Shown here one piece after another: positions 8,397 through 30,005 of a stretch of 30,005 nucleotides of DNA. The stretch is taken from positions 1 through 30,005 of IMG/VR virus record IMGVR_UViG_3300017989_000327. One strand, given 5' to 3'. The translations under genes were made by a program, and so were the position numbers. The stretch comes from a virus. Below the pieces are notes generated by a model. That model saw nothing but the letters and a program-made list of their open reading frames with translations, ran no database searches and had not been told where the DNA came from. Positions within the stretch are counted from its first letter, which is position 1; each line of letters begins with the position of its first letter.

Positions 8397-8432
8397 CTGT
8401 GAACTGGAACCAACCAATTAGAGGTGAATACA

Positions 8433-9629
8433 ATGGCATCGAGAGAAATCACGCGGGACATCTGCAAGCTGTGCGAACAGGCCGTTCGCACTCGAACTGT
8501 CCCGCAGTTCGTTTCCCACTTGCGGGAAAGCCTGCGGAAGAAGGAACTTCGCGGAAGCGACTTCAGCATCCGCGACCTCGCGGCGGGCACGATCTTCAGC
8601 GGCAACGCTTCGGTCGGCGTCGAGGGGATCATGGAGTTCTACAACCCGAACGACCCGGGCGGCTCCGTCCGGCTGATGGAAGCGGGCGGGGCCGTGAACA
8701 CGGCTCTGTTCTCGAACATCACCGGCCAGATTTTCTATAACGAAATGATGGAGGAATACGAGGCCCAGAATTTCATCGGCGACAACCTGGTCACGTCGAT
8801 CCCGACGGACCTCGACGGCGAGAAAATCCCGGGCATCGCCAACCTTGGCGACGTCGGTGAAACGGTCGCCGAGTCCGAAGAGTACCCGCGTGCCGGTACT
8901 GCCGAGGACTACATCGAGACGCCGCAGACCACGAAGCGCGGCTTCATTGTCGACGTGACGAAGGAAGCGGTTTTCTTCGATCGAACGGCGATGCTGCTCG
9001 AAAAGTGCCGCAAGACCGGCGAGGCGTTGGGGCTCGCCCGTGAGAAACGGATTCTCAACGTCGCGACCGGCCAGACGAATAACTACAAGTGGCGAGGAAC
9101 GGCGATCGACACGTATGGGGACAACAGTGGTTCGCATTCGTGGGACAACCTGGCAGCGTCGAATGCGTTGCAAGATTGGACAGACATCCAAGCGTCGTGG
9201 CTGTTGTTCGACGGCATGACCGATCCGAACACCGGCGAACCGATCACGGTCGTTCCGGATACCCTGCTTGTCCCGTCGGCGCTGCTTTGGACCGCCCGGA
9301 ACATCATCCAGGCAACCGAAGTTCGGACGTCGACGGCGTCGGCCGCGAACCTCACGATCCACGGGAACCCGACCTCGAACCTGCCGAGTCCGCTCGGTGT
9401 CCAGTCGAACGCGTTCGTTTACAACGCGACGAGTTCGGCCACCACTTGGTTCGTCGGCAACTTCAAGAAGGCGTTCGTCGAGATGGTGAACTGGCCGATC
9501 ACGGTCGTCGAGATGCCGCCGAATTCGTACCCCGAATACAACCAGGACATCGTTGCCTCGTTCAAGGCAAGCGAACGTTCGGTTGTTGGTGTCAAGGAAC
9601 CTCGCTACGTCGTCAAGAACACGGCGTAG
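8433..9629 (+). CDS. Major capsid protein (HK97 fold likely), 398 aa
   Basis: The main shell subunit. Identified by location after protease/scaffold, length, and segments typical of Mu/HK97-like capsid proteins: an N-terminal charged helical arm, the FYNEMMEEYEAQNFIGD helix with DNLVTSIPTDLDGEKIPG strands, a long helix (FDRTAMLLEKCRKTGEALGLAREKR, in part), and the C-terminal P-domain (DTLLVPSALLWTA, VVGVKEPRYVVKNTA). ATG 8433 is chosen because GAGGTG at 8421-8426 is a well-placed ribosome binding site; a GTG at 8424 falls inside it. Hairpins flank the gene on both sides, consistent with high and separately controlled expression. Confidence 0.85.
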   Translation: MASREITRDICKLCEQAVRTRTVPQFVSHLRESLRKKELRGSDFSIRDLAAGTIFSGNASVGVEGIMEFYNPNDPGGSVRLMEAGGAVNTALFSNITGQIFYNEMMEEYEAQNFIGDNLVTSIPTDLDGEKIPGIANLGDVGETVAESEEYPRAGTAEDYIETPQTTKRGFIVDVTKEAVFFDRTAMLLEKCRKTGEALGLAREKRILNVATGQTNNYKWRGTAIDTYGDNSGSHSWDNLAASNALQDWTDIQASWLLFDGMTDPNTGEPITVVPDTLLVPSALLWTARNIIQATEVRTSTASAANLTIHGNPTSNLPSPLGVQSNAFVYNATSSATTWFVGNFKKAFVEMVNWPITVVEMPPNSYPEYNQDIVASFKASERSVVGVKEPRYVVKNTA

Positions 9630-11829: not shown

Positions 11830-12509
11830 CCACGCAGCGCTTCCACACAGTCATCGGCTCGGCTTTCTTGCTCGCTACCTTGGCGGCGTTCGGCGTAACT
11901 GCCGAACCGCCGTCGGGTGGCATCGTCTGCCCTGACAGTGCGGAGGCGGGCGAGTTGATCGTCGCCGAGTCGGCGGTCGCCGGATCGTGGACCGTTTTGC
12001 CCGATTCGTGGAACGGCTGCTATCGAGTCGATTCGGACGGCACCAAGTTGTATTTCGCATCACCGATCGCCGGTGACGTATATATCGTTCACGCTTCGCA
12101 GGGTGATGCGGCCCCGTTGATTTCGACGCATCATCTTGCGAATGGCACCGCACCGGGGCCGGGGCCGTCTCCTACCCCGCCCCCGGTGCCCCCCATATCC
12201 GATTTTGCCGATTTTGTGATGCGTGAAGCATCGAAAGTCAATCGCCCGTCGGAGGCGGAGGCCCGTGCCGTGATATTCGAGCGGATCGCTGACGGGATCG
12301 ATGCGGGCGATTATTCAGACCCGGTCGCGGTCCGGGAGGCGGCCAACGCTGATATTGAGCGTGGGTTTCCGCAATCGTCGGACATCGCGTGGTCGGAGTA
12401 CCAAGAGCGTGTCGGCGAACGGATGGCGGCGATGAACCTAGAAACGTTGTCGGACTACTCGGCAATGTTTCGCGAAATGGTCGACGGGCTACGGAGGTCG
12501 ATACCATGA
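11826..12509 (+). CDS. Exported protein with signal peptide and proline-rich linker, 227 aa
   Basis: Residues 1-26 look like a Sec signal peptide: short polar start, hydrophobic core (IGSAFLLATLAAFG) and a VTA cleavage site before EPP. A beta-rich domain (about 30-105) follows with two cysteines and Ig-like strand spacing (GDVYIVHASQGD). Then comes a Pro linker (PGPGPSPTPPPVPP) and a helical acidic domain. Export of a phage protein from the host is unusual outside lysis, superinfection exclusion or envelope modification. GGAGG lies at 11811-11815. It is tightly linked to the peptidase gene by overlap, so they may work together in the periplasm. Function unknown. Confidence 0.78.
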   Translation: MTTQRFHTVIGSAFLLATLAAFGVTAEPPSGGIVCPDSAEAGELIVAESAVAGSWTVLPDSWNGCYRVDSDGTKLYFASPIAGDVYIVHASQGDAAPLISTHHLANGTAPGPGPSPTPPPVPPISDFADFVMREASKVNRPSEAEARAVIFERIADGIDAGDYSDPVAVREAANADIERGFPQSSDIAWSEYQERVGERMAAMNLETLSDYSAMFREMVDGLRRSIP

Positions 12510-13408
12510 ACACAACCGGTTGGGCTGGATATGATGCCGAATTCAGCGAATGGCATCGAGCTCGCGCCGACGTGATGCGCGGACAGCGTGGCGATCGTCG
12601 GTTCCGCAGACTGGCGGACCGGCTGCGGCTGTTCGATTACGAGGAAGACGAGGCGGCGGAAATCCGCGACTCGTCGCCGAACGTCGATTTCCCGCATCCG
12701 GCACGGATCGCAAAAGAATTCAACAAACCGTTCTGGCGACTGTTCCAGGAAATCGGCGATTGCACGGGATTCGGGCTCGCCCATGCGATGCAAGCAACGA
12801 ACCTGTTCCAGAAACACCTCGGCGACGAGCAGAAAGTGCAGATCGCGCATCCGTCCGACCTGTACGGACAGGGGCGTCAGATATGGCGACGATTCAGCGG
12901 CGACGGCTGCACCGGATCGGCGGTCGCACGTGGCGCGGCGGAACACGGTTTCCTGATGCTCGGCGACGACGGCGTTCCACCGTATTCGGGCGAATTGTCC
13001 CGGAAATGGGGCGGTCGCGGCGGCGATCGTTTTCTGGCCCGATACGATCATCTTCGGGTGGATCGCAAAATCGCACACGTCCATTGTCGCGGCTACACGC
13101 AGGCAATGGATATGTTGACAGGCGGCTGCGGCCTGGCGATTGCGGCCCACTACGGATTCGATTTCGAGACGGACGGCGGCATCACCGTCGGCACGCTGAA
13201 CAAACGCAAACCATGGTCGCACCAATGGGCGGTCGTGTTCGCCGACCGCGAATGGGTATATGCACAAAATTCGCACAAGGACCGCCCCGACTGGATTATG
13301 AGCCACGAGACATTCGACCAGGTCTGTTCGATCGGTTCGACGTGGATCGAGGCGGTGAAAACCTACGACGGCGACGACGGCGGGGCGGAAGACTGGAGCT
13401 TCGCGTAA
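12506..13408 (+). CDS. Papain-like cysteine peptidase, possible endolysin, 300 aa
   Basis: The catalytic pattern of the papain fold is present in order: FQEIGDCTGFGLAHAM (Gln81 oxyanion, Cys86 nucleophile), KPWSHQWAVVF (His239) and VYAQNSHKD (Asn255). In C1-type enzymes these form the Cys-His-Asn triad. It has no signal peptide. The first ~70 residues are charged and helical. No other lysozyme, amidase or peptidase was found here, and the next gene is holin-like, so it may be the endolysin; alternatives are a virion peptidase or a cell-surface protease. GGAGG at 12493-12497 gives ideal spacing to the ATG, which overlaps the upstream stop. Confidence 0.72.
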   Translation: MNTTGWAGYDAEFSEWHRARADVMRGQRGDRRFRRLADRLRLFDYEEDEAAEIRDSSPNVDFPHPARIAKEFNKPFWRLFQEIGDCTGFGLAHAMQATNLFQKHLGDEQKVQIAHPSDLYGQGRQIWRRFSGDGCTGSAVARGAAEHGFLMLGDDGVPPYSGELSRKWGGRGGDRFLARYDHLRVDRKIAHVHCRGYTQAMDMLTGGCGLAIAAHYGFDFETDGGITVGTLNKRKPWSHQWAVVFADREWVYAQNSHKDRPDWIMSHETFDQVCSIGSTWIEAVKTYDGDDGGAEDWSFA

Positions 13409-14318: not shown

Positions 14319-14932
14319 TGAAATCGATAAACCGAACAGCGGCCACGTTGGTTATTTTGGCAGGGATCGTGGCGGCGATCTTTGTTGGCCATACGTCGGA
14401 AACTCAGCGATCAACATCAGCGTTGATGACGCTATATGCAGACAACGCCGCAGGCGATATCAGCCCGCAAGATTTACGCGACTTTGTCGAGACGTACAAG
14501 GGCGCTCGCGGCGGCATGTCAATTGATTCGTCGGCGGCCACGACGATCAGTACGCCAGGGACGTTTGTAAAGGCGGCTGGCACGACGCAGGCCATATCGA
14601 CACCACAGAAAATGACTGTTGCGACGGATAACAGGATAACATACACCGGTGTGGCTGACATATGCGGTTGTGTCCTTGTCTCTGCGTCGGTAACGGCTGG
14701 TACGAACAACACCGTAATGCAAGCGGCTGTCTACAAAAACGGCTCACCGATCAGTAATGTGAATAACATTCACCGCAAGATTAGCACGGGAACGGATGTC
14801 GGGGCAATCGCTATCACGGCACCGGTGCAGTTGTCGACGAATGACTATATCGAGTTGTGGGTTACGCTCGACGCGGCGTCGACGGTGACGATAGAGCAGT
14901 TGAATTTTTCGATCAGTGGTCACACGCTGTAA
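14318..14932 (+). CDS. Membrane-anchored jelly-roll-like protein, 204 aa
   Basis: Residues ~8-24 form a hydrophobic segment (ATLVILAGIVAAIFVG), an anchor or signal sequence. Next comes LYADNAAGDISPQDLRDFVE, a sequence style often seen in phage tail-fibre proteins. The last ~130 residues are beta-rich, with a C1q/TNF-like order: polar strand, GVADICGCVLVSASV, MQAAVYKNGSPIS, LSTNDYIELWV and a final SISGHTL strand. Such domains form trimers at fibre tips. The mix of a membrane segment and a fibre-like domain is odd. It may be displayed on the host surface or be a virion protein with a hydrophobic start. Confidence 0.62.
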   Translation: MKSINRTAATLVILAGIVAAIFVGHTSETQRSTSALMTLYADNAAGDISPQDLRDFVETYKGARGGMSIDSSAATTISTPGTFVKAAGTTQAISTPQKMTVATDNRITYTGVADICGCVLVSASVTAGTNNTVMQAAVYKNGSPISNVNNIHRKISTGTDVGAIAITAPVQLSTNDYIELWVTLDAASTVTIEQLNFSISGHTL

Positions 14933-14941
14933 GGCCGATAC

Positions 14942-16627
14942 ATGAGCGGTTTTTCAAGCGGATTTTCGAGCGGATTTGGAGCGACCGTGGCACGAACGCT
15001 ATATTGGGTCGGAGACGGTACGTACACGTCGTTTACCAATTCGGTTAATTGGTCGCTGTCTTCCGGCGGAGCCGGTGGCGAGGGATACCCAACTGCGCTC
15101 GATATATTCCATTTCGACGGGAACGGCACCGGCGATTGCGACGTCGACGTTGCGATCGACGTAACGGGCGGCAACTTTGCAGTCGGATACACTGGCACGA
15201 TCACCGGCAACAGCAATAATTTCGGGTTCGGGGCGGGCGGGCTCGATGCCTCGGCGGCGTCAGGCATGACGTGGGATGTCAGCGGCTCCGACCTAATCAG
15301 CTACGGCGATGTGACGATCCACGAGTCGGCGACGATCACTAGCGGCTTCGATTCGATCGAATTGGCGGGTACGGCCGACGTTAATCTCGCCACTCCGATG
15401 ACAACCAACCTGATCAACAGCAAAACGGCAGGCAAGATTACGAACGACGGGTCTGGCACCTATACCGTCACGTCGATGCCGTTCGGCACGTACTCGGCGG
15501 GCGACGGCACCAACCCCCCAACGTACACGGCGACAGGCTACGCGATTGATTGGCAAAGCCTCGGCACGTCGACTAGTTCGATCGATTTCGCGGCAGTCAA
15601 TTCCGAGTGGGACGAATTCGACATCGACGGCGGCAGCGTGGACTACGGCACGTCGAACTTCGCGGCGAGGTCGCATACAATCGCGTCCGGCGTCACCGTC
15701 ACGAAGGGGACGGCGAACATTGTTGGATACGGTACAGGAGAGCTGTCAAATAACACAGCTGCGGCGTTCGACTTCTACCGGATCGACATTGCGACCGGTG
15801 CCGACCTACAATGCAACGGTTCGACGGTCGCGCTCGGTTTCGGGAACATGCACAACGGCGGGAAAATCACGCACGGGGCAACGGCTGGCGATCCGTACAT
15901 GAGAATATATCTCGCAGGCGGCACATATCGCGGCTACGATGGCGGCGAACGTGCGACGAACAACGCGGGATCGATCGCGTACACTGTCGGCGTCGTTGGT
16001 GAATTTATCGGCAACGATACGCTGAGCGGCGATGTCTGCCTGGTTCCGTATCTGAACGGCACAACGCAGGCGCAGGGCGATTGGCGACTAGGCTGCATCG
16101 GGCAGCATCTTGCACCATCGCTGACATACGGCTCGGTCGTATTCACTGGCGACACCGATATCGGCGACATCGAATGCTATGCGCCGGATACGAGGACAAC
16201 GGCTGTCGATAACAGCGGCGGTCATCTGGTGCGATGTTACGGCGATATCGAGGCGACGATTGTCGGCACAGGCGTTGCGAATCTCAGCGGCGTTTTGACA
16301 CCGTCGGGAACAGACGCACAGACCGTCGACGTGCAGGCCGCGACAGCGTACCCGTCTCAACTAGTCGTCGACAAAGATGGTGGCGATCTGAATCTCGACT
16401 GGTATCAGGGCAACCTCGAAGGCGATTGCGGGGCTGGTATCGTTTACCTCGACGGCAGCGGCGATGTTACGCTGACGGACAATCTATTCGACGGCGGCTT
16501 GGATCATGAGATCGCCGTCGGCACATACACAGGCGTTTTCGACAAAAACGGATTCGACGTCAACCCGATCGGCGATTCCCGATACGGTGGCGGCGGCGTT
16601 TCGATGTCCATGAGCATGGGATTATAG
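14942..16627 (+). CDS. Large glycine/serine/threonine-rich beta protein, likely fibre or adhesin, 561 aa
   Basis: Starts with a triple repeat (FSSGFSSGFG), then LYWVGDGTYTSFTNSVNWS and a DIFHFDG strand, a beta-helix entry pattern shared with the C-terminal part of the protein at 22591. The rest has many short alternating strands, few charged helices and many G, T, S, N, D residues, as in right-handed beta-helix tail spikes. It ends in a Gly/Ser/Met tail (GGGVSMSMSMGL). No enzyme motif is visible. It lies apart from the tail-tip genes, between the membrane cassette and the tail terminator, so it could be a head fibre or neck whisker. Confidence 0.62.
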   Translation: MSGFSSGFSSGFGATVARTLYWVGDGTYTSFTNSVNWSLSSGGAGGEGYPTALDIFHFDGNGTGDCDVDVAIDVTGGNFAVGYTGTITGNSNNFGFGAGGLDASAASGMTWDVSGSDLISYGDVTIHESATITSGFDSIELAGTADVNLATPMTTNLINSKTAGKITNDGSGTYTVTSMPFGTYSAGDGTNPPTYTATGYAIDWQSLGTSTSSIDFAAVNSEWDEFDIDGGSVDYGTSNFAARSHTIASGVTVTKGTANIVGYGTGELSNNTAAAFDFYRIDIATGADLQCNGSTVALGFGNMHNGGKITHGATAGDPYMRIYLAGGTYRGYDGGERATNNAGSIAYTVGVVGEFIGNDTLSGDVCLVPYLNGTTQAQGDWRLGCIGQHLAPSLTYGSVVFTGDTDIGDIECYAPDTRTTAVDNSGGHLVRCYGDIEATIVGTGVANLSGVLTPSGTDAQTVDVQAATAYPSQLVVDKDGGDLNLDWYQGNLEGDCGAGIVYLDGSGDVTLTDNLFDGGLDHEIAVGTYTGVFDKNGFDVNPIGDSRYGGGGVSMSMSMGL

Positions 16628-18867: not shown

Positions 18868-19253
18868 CCGACTCCGTGCGGTTGATGCTGTACCATCCGC
18901 ACATATATCGGATCGACTGCACGGACTGCGAACGATTCGTATACAACATGGAGACGGGCGAGAAGATCAAGCGACGGGCAGGGAACTATGAGCGACGGAA
19001 AACACCGCCACCCTGCGCATCGTGTCCGAAGACTAGTAAACGGCCCATAACTATACGGAACGCGATCACGTATCAGCGATTTCTGGCTGCCGAGGCCGGG
19101 TGTCGTTTGACGGACGAGGAAGCGGCTGACCCGATCATCCAACAGAATTTCGCAACATTGAAGTTCATATTCGACGGGTGGCGGATGGAACACGAGGGTC
19201 AGAGCGTCGGTGCGTCGGTGATGTCCGCGATCCAAACGATACGGGGTTCCTGA
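18430..19253 (+). CDS. Tail assembly chaperone, long frameshifted form (gpGT-like), ~274 aa
   Basis: Reading slips -1 at the A AAA AAC heptamer (18858-18864) and continues from CTG at 18864 through LTDSVRLMLYHPHIYRIDC to the stop at 19253. Predicted length is 145 + 129 residues. The extension has two cysteine pairs (CTDC and CASC), possibly a zinc site, then a helical end. It fills the gap to the next gene exactly. In lambda the GT fusion binds tube and tape measure subunits. Alone, the extension would need a GTG start at 18876 with no Shine-Dalgarno, which favours the frameshift. Confidence 0.78.
18858..18864 (+). promoter_or_regulatory. Programmed -1 frameshift slippery site A AAA AAC
   Basis: The heptamer follows X XXY YYZ with zero-frame codons AAA AAC, immediately followed by the TGA stop (18865-18867). 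The -1 frame is open for 129 more codons. This is one of the strongest known slippery sequences in bacteria. Only a weak 4-bp stem (ACCG 18867-18870 with CGGT 18879-18882) is seen downstream. Confidence 0.78.
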
Positions 19254-19924
19254 TGTTCGAGAAAACGTTCGTAATCAACCTACACCGCAGGCCGGAACGG
19301 CTTGCGGCATTTTACGATCAGCTACCTGGCGACTTGCCGTTCGGTCGCCCGGAACGGTTCGCTGCGATCGACGGCGACCGCGTGAAAAAACCGCTATGGT
19401 GGGGCGGCTTGGCTGGTGCGTGGGGCTGCCTGCTGTCGCATGCCCGCGTGCTTGAACAGTGCCTTAACGATGGGGTCGATTCGGTGCTGATATTCGAGGA
19501 CGATGCGGTGTTCCGCGACGATTGGCGTGACATTTGGGACCGGGCAATACCGAGCGTACCGCGTGATTGGGACATGCTCCTATTCGGTGGCGATCATGTT
19601 TTGCTCCACGAGCGGAAGCCACGAAGGGTGTCGTCACATTGGTATTCGCCACACACATGTTTGGAGTCGCACGCTTACGCAGTTCGCGGCAGATTCATGC
19701 AGATACTGTACGATCGTTTGACTGGGATCGACTGGACTGATGACGCGGCGGAGCCGGGCCATTATTCGCCCGACGTGAGAGCGTCGCACTTACAGCGGAT
19801 CGACCGGCACGGCATCTACTGCATAGATCGATGGATCGCGTACCAGTCGGTGGGGATGTCGGACACGGGCGATTACGAAAAAACGAAAGTGCCACGTGAC
19901 ACGGTGGAAATAGCAAATGGTTGA
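19253..19924 (+). CDS. Glycosyltransferase family 25-like protein, 223 aa
   Basis: Has the GT25 pattern: FVINLHRRPERL at the N-terminus, RFAAIDGDRV, AWGCLLSHARVLEQCL, and the metal-binding acidic motif LIFEDDAVF (Glu82-Asp83-Asp84). Family enzymes transfer a sugar (galactose in LPS enzymes) from a nucleotide sugar to LPS or collagen-like acceptors. The gene sits inside the tail operon, with TGATG at its start and an 8-base overlap with the tape measure gene, so it is co-expressed with virion genes. It could glycosylate a tail protein or alter the host surface. The C-terminal part (HLQRIDRHGIYCIDRWIAYQ) is typical of the family. Confidence 0.85.
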   Translation: MFEKTFVINLHRRPERLAAFYDQLPGDLPFGRPERFAAIDGDRVKKPLWWGGLAGAWGCLLSHARVLEQCLNDGVDSVLIFEDDAVFRDDWRDIWDRAIPSVPRDWDMLLFGGDHVLLHERKPRRVSSHWYSPHTCLESHAYAVRGRFMQILYDRLTGIDWTDDAAEPGHYSPDVRASHLQRIDRHGIYCIDRWIAYQSVGMSDTGDYEKTKVPRDTVEIANG

Positions 19925-22590: not shown

Positions 22591-25500
22591 ATGGCAGTCA
22601 ACAAATGGCAGGGTGGCGCGGCAAGCATCCCTCAGGTCGACCGGATCACGTTCGCTGAGATTCGCAGCGGTGACACCGTCGTGTTCACGATCGGCACGAA
22701 AACGGTTTCGGTCGAATCGACGAGCGATAGTATCCCGACGTTCATCGCGGATTGCGTTACGGCGATCGGTCAGTACAGCAACACGATCGCGGAATTCGCG
22801 GAAGTGTCGGCGTCGGCTGGCACAAACGAGGCCGGGCAGGCCGATTCTCTGCTGATCACCGGCCCGACGGACGGGAAACCGTTCACGTTGTCGACCTCGG
22901 CGGACACGGCGGGGGTTACGATATCGCGGCGTCAGAAATATGACGGCGGTCAGGCCCATGTGCAGACGGTGAACGTGTCCCCGGCGACCGGCGGCACGTT
23001 CACGTTGACGTTCGACGGGCAGACGACGGCGGCGATCGCGTACAACGCGGCAGCGGCGACCGTCGCGGCTGCGCTCGAGCTATTGAGCAACATCGACGAT
23101 GTGAGCGTTACGGGCAGTGCCGGCGGTCCGTGGGATGTCGAATTCAACGGACGCTACAACCGCTCCGACGTCTCGCTGATGAGTGGTGACGGTAGCAGCC
23201 TGACGATCACCGGATCGTATACGATGGACATCTCGAACATCCAGAATGAGCGGATTGGCTCGAACCAGGTGCAACGAATCCAGTTGATGGATACGCCGAC
23301 GGGCGGCACGTTCACCGTGACCTACGCGGGGCAAACGACGGCGGGGATCGCGTACAATGCGTCGGCTTCGACCGTTGAAACCGCGATTACCGGCTTATCG
23401 ACCGTCGGAGCGGGGAATGTGAGCGTTACACAGATCGAAGATTTCGCGTATCTTGTCGAATTCATTGGCGATTTTCGAGGCGTTGATGCCGACGTGCTCG
23501 TTGTAGACGGCGATAGCCTGACGGGCGGAACGCTCGGAACAGTGACGCGGTCCCAGGCGGCACGGGACGGCACGAACGCCGTCTACAAAATCGAGCAGAA
23601 TGGATCGGCGTGGAAAATCACTCTGACCGAAGAAAACGGCAGGACATCGACAACGCAGGCAATTTCGGCGACCGCTACGGCGATCGATGTGCATCAATCG
23701 ATCCGCAACACGATCGGCGACGGTGCGTTCGTCACGAACGTGAACAGCGAGGACCGAGCGGATCATCGTGGCGGCCCGTGGAATGTCGAGTTTTCTGGCC
23801 AATTCGCAGGCACGACGTTGACGGCCGCGAACAGCGAGAATGCGACCGTCACTCAGGTTACGGCGGGCTCGAATACGCAGGTTGCCGAGGTCCAGAAAAT
23901 CACATTCGTGGGGAACAACCAGAACGTCATCGTCGCCGGTTCGGCGACGAAAAACCAAGGTTGGGTGGTCAATTTCGCTGGCGGCACGAGCTACGGCATA
24001 TCGTTCGGAATCGACGCGACCGATATCGACACGTCGTATATCACGAACAGCCTGGCGTTGTGCGGTGCGACAGCGACGGTGACCTACGAACTGCTCGCAA
24101 ACGCGACGGTGTTTACGATCACATTCGACACGGATGAGCACAAACAAGACGTTCCGCTGCTCACGATCGCCGAGGCGACAACGTCAGACAGCATCCTGAC
24201 CGACCCGAGTGGCCCGACGACATCGAACGTCACGAGCCAGACGACGATCGGCGTCGGCGACTCGGAGATCGTGACCGACGCGACACCGACGCAGAACGCT
24301 ATCCGTCGGCTCGAATTCGAGACAACCCCGCCCGGCGGCGGCACGTTCACGCTGACCCAGAACTCGAACACGACGGCGGCGATCGCATACGATGCGTCTT
24401 CGGAGGATGTCGAGTCGGCCCTTGAGGCGATCGCGTCGATCACGGATGTCGCTGTCGCCGGAAACGTCGGCGGTCCGTGGGAGATCGAGTTTATCGACTA
24501 CACCGGCGATCCGACGATTACGAGCACGCTCACGAGCCTATCGGGCGTCGGTGTCGATGTGTCACAGGCCCAGGCTGCGATCGCTCCGACACCGGACATT
24601 CAGCGGCTCACGCTGGAGGGGTCGCCGATCAGCGGGACGTATACGCTCACCTACGGAGCGGTTACAACATCGGCGATCAACTATAATGCATCGGCCACGT
24701 CGATCCATCGTGAACTTCGGGACAGCCTGAGCGGCGTGCTGATCGCTCAAACTGTGACGGTGTCCCAAGTCGACGATTACAACTACGATATCGTGTTCGC
24801 GTGGACCTCGGGCACGAACCCGGGGACAGTATCGCTGTTATCGGCCACGTCGAGTCTGACAGGGGCGACAACGACGCGGATCAACGAGGTGACGGAAACA
24901 TCGCCGCAGTCGCCGTTCCATTTCGACGCAGACGACAACTGGTCCAGCGGCACGGCCCCGACGACTGGCGACGATGTCTATTTTGAGTCGAGTGACGATG
25001 ATTGCCTGTATGGACTGGATCAATCGGCGGTCACGCTGACGAGTCTGCACATTGCGTCGAGCTACACGGGTGATATTGGGCTCAAAAACCGGAACGAGGA
25101 TTACTACGAGTACCGAGATACAATGTTGGCCATCGGAGCCACAAACGTATATGTGGGCGAGGGCGAGGGGACCGGCAGCGGTCGCGTGAAACTCGACTTT
25201 GGGGCAATTCAGACGACCGTGCTCGTTCGCAACACGGGCGTCGCCGAGGACGAGGCGATCGGCGCGTTGGTGGTCGCGGGTACGCACGCCAGCAACGTGC
25301 TACGGGTGCTGCGTGGCAGCGTCGGCGTTGCGACGAACGAGCCGGAACAACTGAGCACGTTTGCGACGATCGACGAGAGTTGGATCGATGCCCAGGATAC
25401 CGACGCGGAGATCATCGTCGGCTCGGATGTGACGCTCACGACAGTTACGCAATCTGGCGGATCATTCGACTGCCGGTCGAATATCACAACCTATACCAAC

Positions 25501-25809
25501 CGTGGCGGCACCGGCACGATCGCCGGATCGGCGACGGTTGCAACGCTCGACGCATCGGGCGGCACGGTCTACTACGAATCGAGTGGCACGCTGTCCCAAG
25601 GTTACGCACGAGCCGGCGCCACAGTCAGTTTCGACCGTGATTTGCGGTCGCGGACTGTTACCGATCTTACCGTCTTTGCCGGTTCTACCGTTTCGGACCG
25701 GTCGCGGACGGTGACATGGACGAATCCGATCAAGGTTTCGGGTTGCAGTTTGCAAGATTTGGACCTCGAATTGGGGACCAATATCTCTGTCGCAGTCGCC
25801 TCTCTATAA
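22591..25809 (+). CDS. Giant tail protein with seven ~100-residue beta repeats and beta-helix end, 1072 aa
   Basis: Repeats begin near residues 17, 124, 227, 331, 434, 571 and 670. The core pattern is GTFTLTFDGQTTAAIAYNA, a helix of the type VAAALELLSNI, and a GGPW-x-(V/I)EF strand. The N-terminal unit is the most diverged. A 33-residue Ser/Thr/Asp-rich insertion follows unit 4. From residue ~770 a different part begins with FHFDADDNWSSGTAPTTGD, the same entry pattern as in the 561-aa protein, then short beta-helix-like strands. Such repeat proteins are probably extended fibres for adsorption. AGGAA precedes ATG 22591. A terminator overlaps its stop. Confidence 0.75.
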   Translation: MAVNKWQGGAASIPQVDRITFAEIRSGDTVVFTIGTKTVSVESTSDSIPTFIADCVTAIGQYSNTIAEFAEVSASAGTNEAGQADSLLITGPTDGKPFTLSTSADTAGVTISRRQKYDGGQAHVQTVNVSPATGGTFTLTFDGQTTAAIAYNAAAATVAAALELLSNIDDVSVTGSAGGPWDVEFNGRYNRSDVSLMSGDGSSLTITGSYTMDISNIQNERIGSNQVQRIQLMDTPTGGTFTVTYAGQTTAGIAYNASASTVETAITGLSTVGAGNVSVTQIEDFAYLVEFIGDFRGVDADVLVVDGDSLTGGTLGTVTRSQAARDGTNAVYKIEQNGSAWKITLTEENGRTSTTQAISATATAIDVHQSIRNTIGDGAFVTNVNSEDRADHRGGPWNVEFSGQFAGTTLTAANSENATVTQVTAGSNTQVAEVQKITFVGNNQNVIVAGSATKNQGWVVNFAGGTSYGISFGIDATDIDTSYITNSLALCGATATVTYELLANATVFTITFDTDEHKQDVPLLTIAEATTSDSILTDPSGPTTSNVTSQTTIGVGDSEIVTDATPTQNAIRRLEFETTPPGGGTFTLTQNSNTTAAIAYDASSEDVESALEAIASITDVAVAGNVGGPWEIEFIDYTGDPTITSTLTSLSGVGVDVSQAQAAIAPTPDIQRLTLEGSPISGTYTLTYGAVTTSAINYNASATSIHRELRDSLSGVLIAQTVTVSQVDDYNYDIVFAWTSGTNPGTVSLLSATSSLTGATTTRINEVTETSPQSPFHFDADDNWSSGTAPTTGDDVYFESSDDDCLYGLDQSAVTLTSLHIASSYTGDIGLKNRNEDYYEYRDTMLAIGATNVYVGEGEGTGSGRVKLDFGAIQTTVLVRNTGVAEDEAIGALVVAGTHASNVLRVLRGSVGVATNEPEQLSTFATIDESWIDAQDTDAEIIVGSDVTLTTVTQSGGSFDCRSNITTYTNRGGTGTIAGSATVATLDASGGTVYYESSGTLSQGYARAGATVSFDRDLRSRTVTDLTVFAGSTVSDRSRTVTWTNPIKVSGCSLQDLDLELGTNISVAVASL
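22960..24870 (+). repeat. Six tandem coding repeats (~300 bp each) in the giant tail protein
   Basis: Unit starts are at 22960, 23269, 23581, 23890, 24301 and 24598. Units 1, 3 and 5 contain GGPW before the V/I-EF strand, while units 2 and 6 have a D(F/Y)-x-Y pattern there (EDFAYLVEF and DDYNYDIVF) and unit 4 has neither clearly. This alternation points to duplication of a two-unit block. A further, more diverged unit lies near 22640-22930. Confidence 0.7.
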
Positions 25810-25954: not shown

Positions 25955-27574
25955 ATGGCGAACCAGGGTGTGTTCCGGTTCCCCGGCGTGTCGGGTGTGA
26001 TGGCGGCGTCGTTGACCAGGACGGGCGGTGTGGCCCCGAATGTGGCGACGTTACAGGTACCGCCACAGGCAACGAAGCTCGGCACCGGTGATTTGACGAT
26101 CGAATATGGTGGCACGACGATTCGGCTTCGAGACTGTCGCCCGGACAAAGTATCGACGGCGACGGCGGCGGACGGTCGCACGACGTGGATCCTATCGATC
26201 GTGGATCGCCGCTGGCGATGGGCGGAAACGGGGCAGGTCAGCGGCGTCTATACCGAGTCGGCTCGCGACCTTGCGGGGTGCTGCCTGGATGCGATGGGCG
26301 AGCAGCGGTACGATGTGAGCAAAATGCCGACAACCGAAATTGACGTCGACTGGGATTACGAACGCCCGGCGGAGGCCCTGGCACAGATTTGCGGCGAGGT
26401 CGCCTGTGAGATCATTCTGGGGCTTGACGATCGGGTGCGAGTCGTGCCGCTGACCCAGCGGGGGAAATTGCCGAATAAACGGTTCGCGACATCGTTCCAG
26501 CAGACTATCGATCCACCCGAACTCCCCGGCGCGATCGTGGCGGTCGGTGGACGTTCGCTTGTCCAGTTCGATTTCAAGCTGGAGCCAGTCGGCTTGGAGC
26601 TTGATGGCTCGATTCTGCCGATCGACCGGTTGAGCTATCGCCCGAAACGCGGGTTGCCGAACAATGCGTGGGCCTACTGTGACACTCGCAACATGAGCTA
26701 CATCAAGGAGGCTCAGGCCCGGCAGCTGGCGACGCAAACCGTTTTTCGATGGTATCGAATCCAGACGCCGATAATCAACACGGGCGTCTTGGCCCGTGAT
26801 TTCGGGCGAATCACGGACAGGAACCGAGTTCTGCCGCTGGAGAATACGCAGCTGGAGAGGATGCCCGAGCCTGGCGAGATCGGCAGCACTGTTCGCCGTC
26901 CGCCGTGGGTGCATGGAATTTGGTATGACAACGTGACGAGCGGAAAGCCGACGAACGAGACGGACCCTGACAACATCGACCTGCGGAACCGCCCGGAGGC
27001 GATCTATCCGTATCCGTTCACCGTCGATGTGGATCGTGGCATCGTGCAGTTCGCGAATCCCGTGTTTTCGGTCGGGAAAAACCAGGTGGATGACGGCACC
27101 GGCGGTTTCCCGATCCAACCGGCGGACATCCGGCTGCGGATCGCGTCTGGCATCCGCGACGTGGAAACCGGCAAATTTCTCCGCTACGAGGAAAAACGCA
27201 GCACCGGCGGGCTGAGAACGAAACCGCGATATGAGATATACGACGACATTCAGCGGCAACTATACCGAGACTACGAGGCAAACGGGCTGGAGGTCGATAA
27301 TATCGACTCCGTTCGCCGAGCGTTGCAGTCGAGGATCGATGCCGTCGAGGATGAGTATACAGCGGACAAACCGAATGTCGCGACGTATGTGGGGTTCCAC
27401 GCGACGGAACTATCCGGCACGATCAGGCAGGTGAGCTACGAGTTGCCGGAGGCGGGAGTCGCCATGACGCGGGTCGCGGTTGAAACGGAGGAACTGAACC
27501 GGGCAACGTCGCGTCGCCAACGCGAATGGTTCGAGCGGGTATCGCGGAAAGTGCGGGGACGATCGAGTGGATAG
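25955..27574 (+). CDS. Putative tail hub / baseplate-type protein, 539 aa
   Basis: Mixed alpha/beta protein in the place of the tail hub, after the fibre-like gene. The N-terminal part has TLQVPPQATKLGTGDLTIEY and LSIVDRRWRW (common in tail-tip hub beta barrels), then ALAQICGEVACEIILGLDDR, a pattern also seen in gpD/gp27-like hubs, and later ARQLATQTVFRWYRIQTP. The C-terminal part is charged with coiled-coil character (YRDYEANGLEVDNIDSVRRA). AGGGGG at 25941-25946 is a very good ribosome binding site. The identity is inferred from order and weak patterns. Confidence 0.58.
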   Translation: MANQGVFRFPGVSGVMAASLTRTGGVAPNVATLQVPPQATKLGTGDLTIEYGGTTIRLRDCRPDKVSTATAADGRTTWILSIVDRRWRWAETGQVSGVYTESARDLAGCCLDAMGEQRYDVSKMPTTEIDVDWDYERPAEALAQICGEVACEIILGLDDRVRVVPLTQRGKLPNKRFATSFQQTIDPPELPGAIVAVGGRSLVQFDFKLEPVGLELDGSILPIDRLSYRPKRGLPNNAWAYCDTRNMSYIKEAQARQLATQTVFRWYRIQTPIINTGVLARDFGRITDRNRVLPLENTQLERMPEPGEIGSTVRRPPWVHGIWYDNVTSGKPTNETDPDNIDLRNRPEAIYPYPFTVDVDRGIVQFANPVFSVGKNQVDDGTGGFPIQPADIRLRIASGIRDVETGKFLRYEEKRSTGGLRTKPRYEIYDDIQRQLYRDYEANGLEVDNIDSVRRALQSRIDAVEDEYTADKPNVATYVGFHATELSGTIRQVSYELPEAGVAMTRVAVETEELNRATSRRQREWFERVSRKVRGRSSG

Positions 27575-28466
27575 AGAACAACGAGCAATTGCAGTCTACA
27601 ACACCTCGACGACGGATTTCATTCCGGCGTTCGCGATGGTGTGGATACATTCGAGCTACTACGAGCCGAACGGGCGGATCGTTTACAGCGTGCAGAAGAT
27701 CAGCGACGACACGGCGTTTTCTTCGCGGCTCGCATTGACGAACCAGGGTATGGGGCGGCTGGCCGTCGTGATGTCGACGCCGATCCCGCCGGAGGGGCGT
27801 GGGCTCGCAACCCAGGACTGGCCGACGCAATGCCTGCATGATTACGCAAACGATGATGCTTGGACCGGCGCCGATGTTGTCGAGGTCGGTCCGGTGTCCG
27901 ACAGCTGGGGTGTCGTCGCTGGCGGAGTCGGATTCAGCCGGGTGGCTGACGATTCTGGGCTCGATTCTGATCGACCTCAATATTATGACGACCGATACCG
28001 GGCGATCTGGATCGCTCCGAAGATCGGCAACACGGCGTCAACCAAATACACCGGCATCATTGGCGGTGCGACCGTCGGCCCTGGGCAAAACCTACCGCTG
28101 TCTTCGGCGTACCGAACCGGCGACTTCGAGTTCGATGCGTCGGCCCGGACAGTGACCGCGAAGCGGAGCGGGCTCTGCTTCTTCTCGGCTGGCTGCACAA
28201 TCAGCAGTACGACGGCGAGCAACGGTGACGTGCTGCGGATGCGGCTGTATCAGGGTGACGACGCTAGGTATCTGCACGCCTATCGGCTGCAATGTATCGA
28301 GTGGAGCGGTACGACCGTGAGCCCGACGCTGTTCTATACCGGCGAGAATGTCGCGTTCCAGGGACCACTGAACATCGAGAAGGGTGACGTTATTAGCGTG
28401 CGGAACGACACGAGTTTGACCTACATCGTCGGCGGCTTCATTTTCTCGGCAACATTCACGGGGTAA
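27567..28466 (+). CDS. Tail protein with C-terminal C1q/jelly-roll-like domain, 299 aa
   Basis: The first ~170 residues form an unrecognised alpha/beta domain (AIAVYNTSTTDFIPAFAMVW; later SDSWGVVAGGVG). The last ~115 residues are beta-rich: FEFDASARTVTAKRSGLCFF, VLRMRLYQGD, NIEKGDVISVRND and a final GGFIFSATFTG. That order is typical of C1q/TNF-like trimeric tips, also seen in the protein at 14318. It starts with GTG, overlapping the hub stop by 8 bases. Probably a receptor-binding or tail-tip component. Confidence 0.6.
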   Translation: MDREQRAIAVYNTSTTDFIPAFAMVWIHSSYYEPNGRIVYSVQKISDDTAFSSRLALTNQGMGRLAVVMSTPIPPEGRGLATQDWPTQCLHDYANDDAWTGADVVEVGPVSDSWGVVAGGVGFSRVADDSGLDSDRPQYYDDRYRAIWIAPKIGNTASTKYTGIIGGATVGPGQNLPLSSAYRTGDFEFDASARTVTAKRSGLCFFSAGCTISSTTASNGDVLRMRLYQGDDARYLHAYRLQCIEWSGTTVSPTLFYTGENVAFQGPLNIEKGDVISVRNDTSLTYIVGGFIFSATFTG

Positions 28467-28467
28467 T

Positions 28468-29568
28468 ATGACGATCATCGATATAGCACAGGCGGCGGAG
28501 AGTTACGGACTAGGCACGATCCCCGAGGGTTTCGGGCGGATGAAGGAATCCGAGCAAACGCGGATCGCGACTGAGATCATCGACGCCGCGCGGGAGAAAG
28601 CGGCGGGCGGCGACCGAACGGCGACCGATTTTTTCGAGGTTTTCAACCGGTCGCAGCCGGTCCCGACGGCGGGGATCGAGACGTTCACGCCGATCGATCG
28701 CGAAACGCGTTTCGTTGGCACGGACGAACTGGTTGCCGATACGCACCGGCTGATCGAAACACTACCGCATATTTCAGCAGTCGCGGCGATGCCTCGGAGC
28801 GGGTTCTTCCCAGCTTCGATCATCGCGATGCGGTTGCACGTTCCGATGTATCACGTTCGGTCGCATGACGACGGGTGGATCGGATCGGGGAACCGGACAA
28901 CGTTGGAACCGATCAGCCATGGAATGCGGCTACAGGTTCGGTCGGAATATAGCGGGCCGGTGTTAATCGTGGACGACACCGTAGGTCGCGGCGGGACCGT
29001 TTCGGCGGTCCGGTCGTCGCTGGATACCGGCGGCGTTTCGACGGCCTACGCGGCTGTGTACGTCCACCCGAACAGCACGCACCTCGTGGATTATCATGTC
29101 GGCGTCCTGCGGGAACCGCATCTGCTCGAATGGAATTTCGCGAACAGTCCGTTCGCGGCACATTGTGGCACCGACATGGATGGCATAATCTGCGACGATT
29201 TCGCGCAATACGAAGATGACGACGGCGAACAATACATAGAGGCGATGCGATGCCGCCGACCTCGGCACCTGTTCCGGCGCGGCGTCCGGGCGATCGTAAC
29301 GAGCCGCCTGGAGAAATACCGGCGTCAGACTGTCGCGTGGCTCGAACAGCACGGCGTGCGGTATGACTCGCTGATCATGGGACCGTGGCGAACGCAGGCG
29401 GAGCGAGCGGTGGCGGATGTCGCGGGCTGGAAAGCCGAGCAGTGCCGCAACCACGGCGTTGCGGCATACTTCGAGAGCGATCGGGCGACAGCCGAGCAGA
29501 TGGCCGGGCGGTCCGGCTGTCCGGTATGTTGTCCGGAGTCGCGTCGAATCTATTGGGGGACCGAATGA
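28468..29568 (+). CDS. Phosphoribosyltransferase-HAD phosphatase fusion, 366 aa
   Basis: Two enzyme domains. Residues ~90-230 form a type I phosphoribosyltransferase with the PRPP-binding motif VLIVDDTVGRGGTVSA (Asp169-Asp170). Residues ~233-345 form a HAD hydrolase: motif I DMDGIICDD (Asp236, Asp238), motif II VTSR (Thr278), motif III Lys322 in GWKAEQC, and motif IV acidic ESDRATAEQM (Asp338). The PRTase could add or remove phosphoribose and the HAD part dephosphorylate the product. PRTase and HAD genes also occur together in ter-type biosynthetic clusters proposed to make a nucleoside-like compound. An N-terminal ~85-residue helical part is unassigned. It lies in a late tail operon, which is unusual for a metabolic enzyme. 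Confidence 0.85.
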   Translation: MTIIDIAQAAESYGLGTIPEGFGRMKESEQTRIATEIIDAAREKAAGGDRTATDFFEVFNRSQPVPTAGIETFTPIDRETRFVGTDELVADTHRLIETLPHISAVAAMPRSGFFPASIIAMRLHVPMYHVRSHDDGWIGSGNRTTLEPISHGMRLQVRSEYSGPVLIVDDTVGRGGTVSAVRSSLDTGGVSTAYAAVYVHPNSTHLVDYHVGVLREPHLLEWNFANSPFAAHCGTDMDGIICDDFAQYEDDDGEQYIEAMRCRRPRHLFRRGVRAIVTSRLEKYRRQTVAWLEQHGVRYDSLIMGPWRTQAERAVADVAGWKAEQCRNHGVAAYFESDRATAEQMAGRSGCPVCCPESRRIYWGTE

Positions 29569-29639
29569 TGGACGCTCAATTCGTTTTGATGTTGGTGGTG
29601 CTGTTTTTCATCGGATTCGCGCTGGCAGATCAACTATGA
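29565..29639 (+). CDS. Membrane microprotein, 24 aa
   Basis: MMDAQFVLMLVVLFFIGFAL ends ADQL: a single hydrophobic helix with little else. GGGGGA lies five to ten bases before the ATG, a good binding site. It overlaps the PRTase-HAD stop and its own stop overlaps the sulfotransferase ATG, so it is part of a coupled three-gene set. It may anchor or accompany the neighbouring enzymes; no family known. Confidence 0.58.
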   Translation: MMDAQFVLMLVVLFFIGFALADQL

Positions 29640-30005
29640 TAGTCTGTGACAACCCGGCATTTGTTTTTGTTCATTGCCCGCGAACGAGCGGCATATCGTT
29701 GTCCCGTGCGATCGTTGAGGCGATCCCGTCGGCCCGCTGGATCGACGGGATGTGTATGCACGTTACGGCGTGGCACGCTCGGCTGATGTTCCCGGAGCAC
29801 CGGATGTTCACGATCCTGCGCAACCCGTGGGATTGTTTCGCGTCGCAATATGCACTGGTGCAGCGGTGGGTGGCGGAGCAGTGGGACGCCCGAACCGGCT
29901 CGCATCAGAGTCACATTGAGGCACAAGCGTCGCTGTCGTTCGCTGATTTCGTCGCCAAGAAAATCGATGATGAAGACGGTGTCGTCGACGGCGGCTTTTC
30001 CGTGA
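29636..30005 (+). CDS. Sulfotransferase family protein, N-terminal part (3' end outside window)
   Basis: The 123 residues seen carry both PAPS-binding elements: the 5'-phosphosulfate loop FVHCPRTSGISLSRAI (Arg16-Gly19, of the PRTGGTS type) and the 3'-phosphate strand-helix ILRNPWDCFASQY (Arg62, Ser70). A PAPS-dependent sulfotransferase moves sulfate to a carbohydrate or other hydroxyl. The start overlaps the 24-residue gene by ATGA. It continues past the right edge. Together with the glycosyltransferase it suggests surface sugar modification. Acceptor unknown. Confidence 0.85.
   Translation, partial: MIVCDNPAFVFVHCPRTSGISLSRAIVEAIPSARWIDGMCMHVTAWHARLMFPEHRMFTILRNPWDCFASQYALVQRWVAEQWDARTGSHQSHIEAQASLSFADFVAKKIDDEDGVVDGGFSV

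Follow-up and report, generated by a model that had tools for sequence, protein, structure and literature searches.

A phosphoribosyltransferase-HAD fusion and a sulfotransferase behind the tail genes of a planctomycete-type phage: a candidate glycan-decorating set

Gene layout at the right end of the window

The window, that is, the whole stretch of DNA analysed here, is a complete IMG/VR virus record of 30,005 bases, whose right edge is the contig end. It encodes a head and tail cluster with terminase, portal, head maturation protease-like, and minor and major tail proteins. Sequence comparisons indicate that the phage is related to a planctomycete prophage, and these relatives point to its probable host. 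The features relevant to this analysis are listed below (window coordinates, strand, description).

19253–19924, + strand: family 25 glycosyltransferase (GT25) gene between two tail genes (PF01755, E=7.3e-11)
25955–28466, + strand: two tail-end genes (539 and 299 aa), directly upstream of PRT-HAD
28468–29568, + strand: PRT-HAD fusion gene, 366 aa (ORF, PF00156, AF2 model, Foldseek, conserved residues)
28468–28704, + strand: N-terminal helical extension of PRT-HAD, ~80 aa, missing in most homologues
28960–28998, + strand: PRPP-binding loop VLIVDDTVGRGGT, residues 165–177 (alignment)
29173–29193, + strand: HAD motif I, DMDGIIC (alignment)
29565–29639, + strand: 24-codon hydrophobic ORF, MMDAQFVLMLVVLFFIGFALADQL, ATGA-coupled at both ends
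29636–30005, + strand: PAPS-type sulfotransferase gene, 5' part, 123 aa seen (phrog_3347; homologue in L031)

As the original prediction had described, three overlapping ORFs follow the tail genes, with ATGA overlaps at both the PRT-HAD/24-codon ORF and the 24-codon ORF/sulfotransferase junctions. The PRT-HAD and sulfotransferase ORFs are far beyond chance, and the 24-codon ORF is a possible real gene. None of the relative loci examined had it, with genes called there by a simple longest-ORF procedure that may miss or misplace genes: a prophage of Thalassoglobus neptunius KOR42 (L031) has a 28-nt gap at this place, and in the planctomycete locus L129 the flanking genes overlap instead. The proposed conserved three-gene unit was therefore rejected, since the peptide was not seen elsewhere and the sulfotransferase is optional. 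Since the record extends no further than the window, the contig end truncates the sulfotransferase, of which 123 aa are visible, and no overlapping viral contig that would extend this end was found with an exact 22-mer from its gene.

The 539-aa tail-end gene has a homologue in the tail cluster of the Thalassoglobus prophage. The tail genes that flank GT25 in the window are adjacent to each other, with no GT25 gene between them, in L117 and in the same prophage. This insertion between tail genes adds a third enzyme pointing to glycans, and GT25 probably belongs to the same glycan-modifying equipment as PRT-HAD and the sulfotransferase.

Some further features of the phage were recorded. A 1072-aa protein (22591–25809) gave four separate hits to a major tail protein family, which by sequence suggests a single chain with several tail-tube-like domains. 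Immediately upstream of the terminase gene, a ParB-like nuclease domain and a DNA methyltransferase domain are joined (865–2253). The capsid encoded by the 6,382-base viral contig L113 (3923–5125) is 100% identical to the window capsid; judged by this match, the contig is a second record of the window virus or of a near-identical one.

Domains, conserved residues, and model of PRT-HAD

PRT-HAD consists of an N-terminal helical extension, a type I phosphoribosyltransferase (PRT) domain, and a small-cap HAD phosphatase domain. The PRT domain matches PF00156 above the Pfam gathering score (E=1.7e-6, residues 103–229), no Pfam HAD family passed for the HAD domain, and the PHROGs match of the protein is to polynucleotide kinase (1.5e-5). 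No whole-length family model was found in Pfam, NCBIfam, or PADLOC. Several planctomycete-type loci carry a Cys-rich extension in place of the helical one. Such extensions lie upstream in the PRT-HAD ORFs of L011, L129, L152, and L155, share a recurring Cys pattern, and, by sequence, are possibly zinc-binding.

An alignment of 65 sequences revealed conserved active sites in both domains. The PRT domain has the vicinal acidic pair and the glycine of a type I PRPP loop, with D170 and G175 invariant and D169 present in 64/65 sequences (Glu in one), together with a PPi loop, in which R110 and G112 are invariant, and the type I fold. The HAD domain has the DxD nucleophile (D236, D238), a Thr/Ser motif II (T278 in 64/65, Ser in one), the motif III lysine (K322), and an acidic motif IV (E336), of which D236, D238, K322, and E336 are invariant. 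HAD motifs I and II are separated by 38–42 residues in all 65 sequences, which means that a large cap is absent there. An AlphaFold (AF2) model built on this alignment resolved two domains with a mean pLDDT of 87.7, compared with a pLDDT of 43 from the single sequence. The passing PF00156 match, the HAD motifs, and the two-domain model thus bear out the fused enzyme of the original prediction.

By both sequence and fold, the PRT domain is nearest to XGPRT and HGXPRT, and its model matched XGPRT in a Foldseek search (E=2.7e-8, TM 0.69 on target length). Because of this resemblance to nucleobase PRTs rather than to the gPRT fold, a base-like acceptor is possible. PRT-HAD would then join PRPP to a base-like heterocycle and the HAD domain would dephosphorylate the product, yielding a free nucleoside or a ribosylated small molecule for salvage, DNA hypermodification, or signalling. 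The near-invariant W222, which could stack an aromatic ring, would suit such an acceptor. The residue at position 200 argues the other way: its XGPRT equivalent is the lysine that contacts the 6-oxopurine, and it is His in the window protein and variable across the family. Together with gene neighbourhoods that hold glycan rather than nucleotide genes (see below), this makes the nucleoside alternative unlikely.

Among the viral structures in BFVD, Foldseek found no convincing whole-length counterpart. One distant viral structural match is named PRTase-CE, a domain name used in conflict systems. A part in phage-host conflict had been among the original suggestions, with PRT-HAD as a PRPP- or nucleotide-depleting effector or as a counter-defence enzyme. 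This idea gained no positive evidence: neither PRT-HAD nor the sulfotransferase matched PADLOC at E≤0.01, the genes lie in a late structural location, and the cellular homologues are found in polysaccharide clusters. We regard it as very improbable.

Family distribution, genomic neighbourhoods, and pairing with the sulfotransferase

A profile search detected PRT-HAD in 23 viral loci and, in bacteria and archaea, in at least 498; the viral relatives were reached by the profile alone, as a single-sequence search of viral contigs returned none. Searching 50,697 catalogued phage records at E≤1e-3 gave no match; with the threshold relaxed to E≤10, the best of the matches listed were partial and mainly annotated as polynucleotide kinase/phosphatase. 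PRT-HAD is an unnamed and uncharacterised family, widespread and common in the polysaccharide gene clusters of bacteria. In a sample of 40 diverse cellular loci with 119 neighbouring genes (raw counts), GT1/GT4 and GT2 glycosyltransferases were the most frequent Pfam families, and next came Wzy, Wzx, methyltransferases, and Wzt; single glycosyltransferase families reached up to 23/119, Wzy_C 7/119, and polysaccharide-export families 6/119. The homologues from Paracoccus and Rhodobacter adjoin Wzx-type flippases and glycosyltransferases; one Paracoccus homologue is WP_016338410.1 of pMARC4. The context of the copy on a Rhizobium etli plasmid is less clear, with a glycosyltransferase two genes on. 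Natural fusions of PRT-HAD to FkbM, Methyltransf_11, Methyltransf_24, or radical SAM domains occur in cellular and prophage-like members. One polysaccharide locus on a plasmid of Rhodobacter sp. CZR27 (L002) contains two PRT-HAD paralogues (12085–13059 and 14713–15663), hinting at two different ribosylation steps.

The phage copies are likewise accompanied by glycan-related genes, with Methyltransf_23 (15/119), GT2 (11/119), and Methyltransf_24 (6/119) among their neighbours (raw counts), and capsid and portal genes close by. The window protein belongs to a ten-member, mostly phage clade (support 100/99), which further comprises viral contigs L008, L011, L027, and L028, the Thalassoglobus prophage, and planctomycete loci L129, L130, L147, and L152, some of these being labelled as phage by their neighbouring genes only. 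PRT-HAD directly follows tail-end genes in L011, L014 (a near twin of L027), L028, and L130, and this position is found in most placeable members of the clade; L129 has a similar, Cys-rich gene upstream, and in the Thalassoglobus prophage capsid genes lie on one side of PRT-HAD and tail genes on the other. A second, separate phage clade shows the order methyltransferase, PRT-HAD, GT2, and glycosyltransferase among head genes. The separation of the two clades in the unrooted tree implies at least two acquisitions or exchanges of PRT-HAD by phages.

Of 398 sampled genomes from the class to which Thalassoglobus belongs, 119 also contained the capsid family of the window (8424–9629), nearly always as a single copy. 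Seven of these loci (from L163–L206) were examined and hold a terminase-portal-protease-capsid module, rearranged in one, with no homologues of the window tail genes. A common prophage type is one possible explanation, and a domesticated, gene-transfer-agent-like element is another.

The sulfotransferase contains the PRTSGIS motif of the 5'-phosphosulfate loop and the RNPWxxxxSxY motif of the 3'-phosphate site, both conserved in the Thalassoglobus prophage, and matches phrog_3347 (Galactose-3-O-sulfotransferase, E=1e-5). Complete homologues are encoded in this prophage and in L129, the latter matching phrog_3347 over residues 14–220. Comparison with PDB sequences gave nothing useful, and by sequence the kinship to characterised enzymes appears weak. 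These data agree with the predicted PAPS-type enzyme; the further statement that all key motifs are intact holds for the PRT-HAD catalytic residues and the two PAPS motifs, with the C-terminal part of the sulfotransferase lying beyond the contig end.

PRT-HAD and the sulfotransferase are neighbours in other loci as well. In the Thalassoglobus prophage, PRT-HAD is followed, across the 28-nt gap, by a complete sulfotransferase, which is 33% identical to the window protein over the common part and shares its PRTSGIS motif. The two phages have portal, protease, capsid, and several tail genes in common and in the same order, with capsids 42% identical, but the pair occupies the capsid-tail gap in the prophage and the tail end in the window. 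In L129, a methyltransferase gene and a glycosyltransferase gene come after the overlapping PRT-HAD and sulfotransferase genes, and the PRT-HAD cassette of L011 includes a different sulfotransferase. An adjacent sulfotransferase was found in three loci only, and none was detected in the other PRT-HAD relatives examined. Conversely, L119/L120 (8001–8564) carry, immediately behind a 672-aa phage gene, a sulfotransferase but no PRT-HAD, in a similar genomic niche. The two genes therefore recur as a pair without being obligatory partners. Of the gene order first proposed, the PRT-HAD/sulfotransferase succession recurs in two planctomycete loci, and the peptide does not. Carriage of the genes singly, which had been named as an argument against a system, is in fact frequent for PRT-HAD and also seen for sulfotransferases, which counts in part against one; the catalytic residues of PRT-HAD are conserved across the 65 aligned sequences.

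These neighbourhoods also bear on where a modified glycan would be located. With the same chemistry, the enzymes could act on the host envelope and alter host surface sugars during infection or lysogeny, leading to receptor masking or seroconversion. The cell-surface polysaccharide clusters around the cellular homologues and the prophage setting of the Thalassoglobus copy are in line with this, and phage glycosyltransferases that modify the host serotype are known (PMC12619734). The genes, however, lie inside the capsid-tail cluster and not near a lysogeny region, and the surroundings of the window genes showed no membrane partner of the Wzx, GtrA, or GT-C type. We consider a host-envelope target rather unlikely, if the most serious of the alternatives. 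The location beside tail genes slightly favours the virion over the host envelope.

Proposed function and comparison with known systems

Taken together, we propose, with a probability of roughly 0.58, that PRT-HAD and the sulfotransferase form a small phage glycan-decorating set that combines PRPP-dependent two-step ribosylation with sulfation. The PRT domain would take ribose-5-phosphate from PRPP and transfer it to an acceptor, most likely a glycan hydroxyl, and the fused HAD domain would then strip the 5-phosphate to leave a ribofuranosyl residue. The sulfotransferase would add sulfate from PAPS to the same glycan, the base of which GT25 may build, and the glycan would somewhat more likely be carried by the virion (tail) than by the host envelope. 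This reading builds on the conserved PRT and HAD active sites, the confident two-domain model, and the canonical PRT fold; on the Wzx, Wzy, Wzt, and glycosyltransferase genes beside the cellular homologues and the methyltransferase and GT2 genes beside the phage ones; and on the methyltransferase fusions, the recurring PRT-HAD-then-sulfotransferase order, and the mostly phage clade. PRPP transfer followed by HAD dephosphorylation is, moreover, an established route to Ribf in bacterial glycans. The surface-compound role originally suggested is thereby strengthened by the polysaccharide-gene neighbours and by the pair in two other planctomycete loci; its "nucleotide-linked" variant found no positive evidence.

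The closest functional parallel is offered by the gPRT-PRP ribofuranosyltransferases of Klebsiella O4/O7, H. influenzae Bcs3 (CriT-CrpP), and C. jejuni Cj1432, whose reaction places Ribf-5-P from PRPP on a sugar, with dephosphorylation as the second step (PMC11127046; PMC10299916; PMC12096443). They likewise unite a PRPP-dependent PRT and a HAD domain in one polypeptide, as PRT-HAD does by sequence and model, and by analogy the same two-step reaction is proposed here; PRT-HAD may thus function like them. Their location in polysaccharide clusters is matched by the cellular PRT-HAD homologues, but not by the phage copies. The two families differ in structure. PRT-HAD has a vicinal DD pair in an XGPRT-like fold, in contrast to the split D680/E818 pair of Bcs3 CriT (PMC10299916); its PRT domain precedes the HAD domain, whereas HAD precedes gPRT in Bcs3 and Cj1432; and ~40 residues separate its HAD motifs I and II, where CrpP has a ~100-residue helical cap (393–490). 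No gPRT-named chain appeared among the PDB sequence matches to E=10 or among the best 50 Foldseek matches. As it lacks the split acidic pair, the capped HAD, and the HAD-before-PRT order, PRT-HAD was not filed under gPRT-PRP.

The type I nucleobase PRTases XGPRT and HGXPRT share the fold, the PRPP loop, and the PPi loop with PRT-HAD, but PRT-HAD differs from them in its fused HAD domain, its non-conserved purine-contacting lysine position, and its glycan gene context. The three-component pentofuranose systems of Citrobacter O1/O2 also produce PRPP-derived ribofuranose with a HAD PRP domain (PMC11127046). They rely on a membrane-embedded polyprenyl phosphoribose synthase, a flippase, and a GT-C enzyme (PMC11127046), none of which was seen near the window genes.

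With respect to phages, glycan enzymes of mycobacteriophages Che8, Corndog, and Myrna decorate capsid and tail tube proteins, according to Freeman et al. (2023) as cited in PMC12619734 and PMC12363180. That virion glycosylation involves other enzyme classes in other phages; the window set has PRPP and PAPS as predicted donors. The sulfotransferases of the window, L031, and L129 match the phage family phrog_3347, and the pairing with PRT-HAD is the feature described here. The literature searched gave no example of PRPP- and PAPS-based decoration by phages, and none on phages of planctomycetes was found with the phrases tried.

Ribofuranose occurs in some bacterial polysaccharides, and its prototypical known transferases represent one fold. 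Against this background, we tentatively suggest, as a possibility to which we give lower odds than to the decorating function itself, that PRT-HAD evolved independently as a second class of PRPP-dependent ribofuranosyltransferase, with an ordinary type I PRT in place of the gPRT fold, which phages acquired at least twice and which would provide ribosylated and sulfated virion glycans in planctomycete-type phages. As a candidate for a second solution to glycan ribosylation, the family can be tested directly and, if this holds true, phage PRT-HAD and the sulfotransferase would decorate virions or hosts by a chemistry based on PRPP and PAPS.
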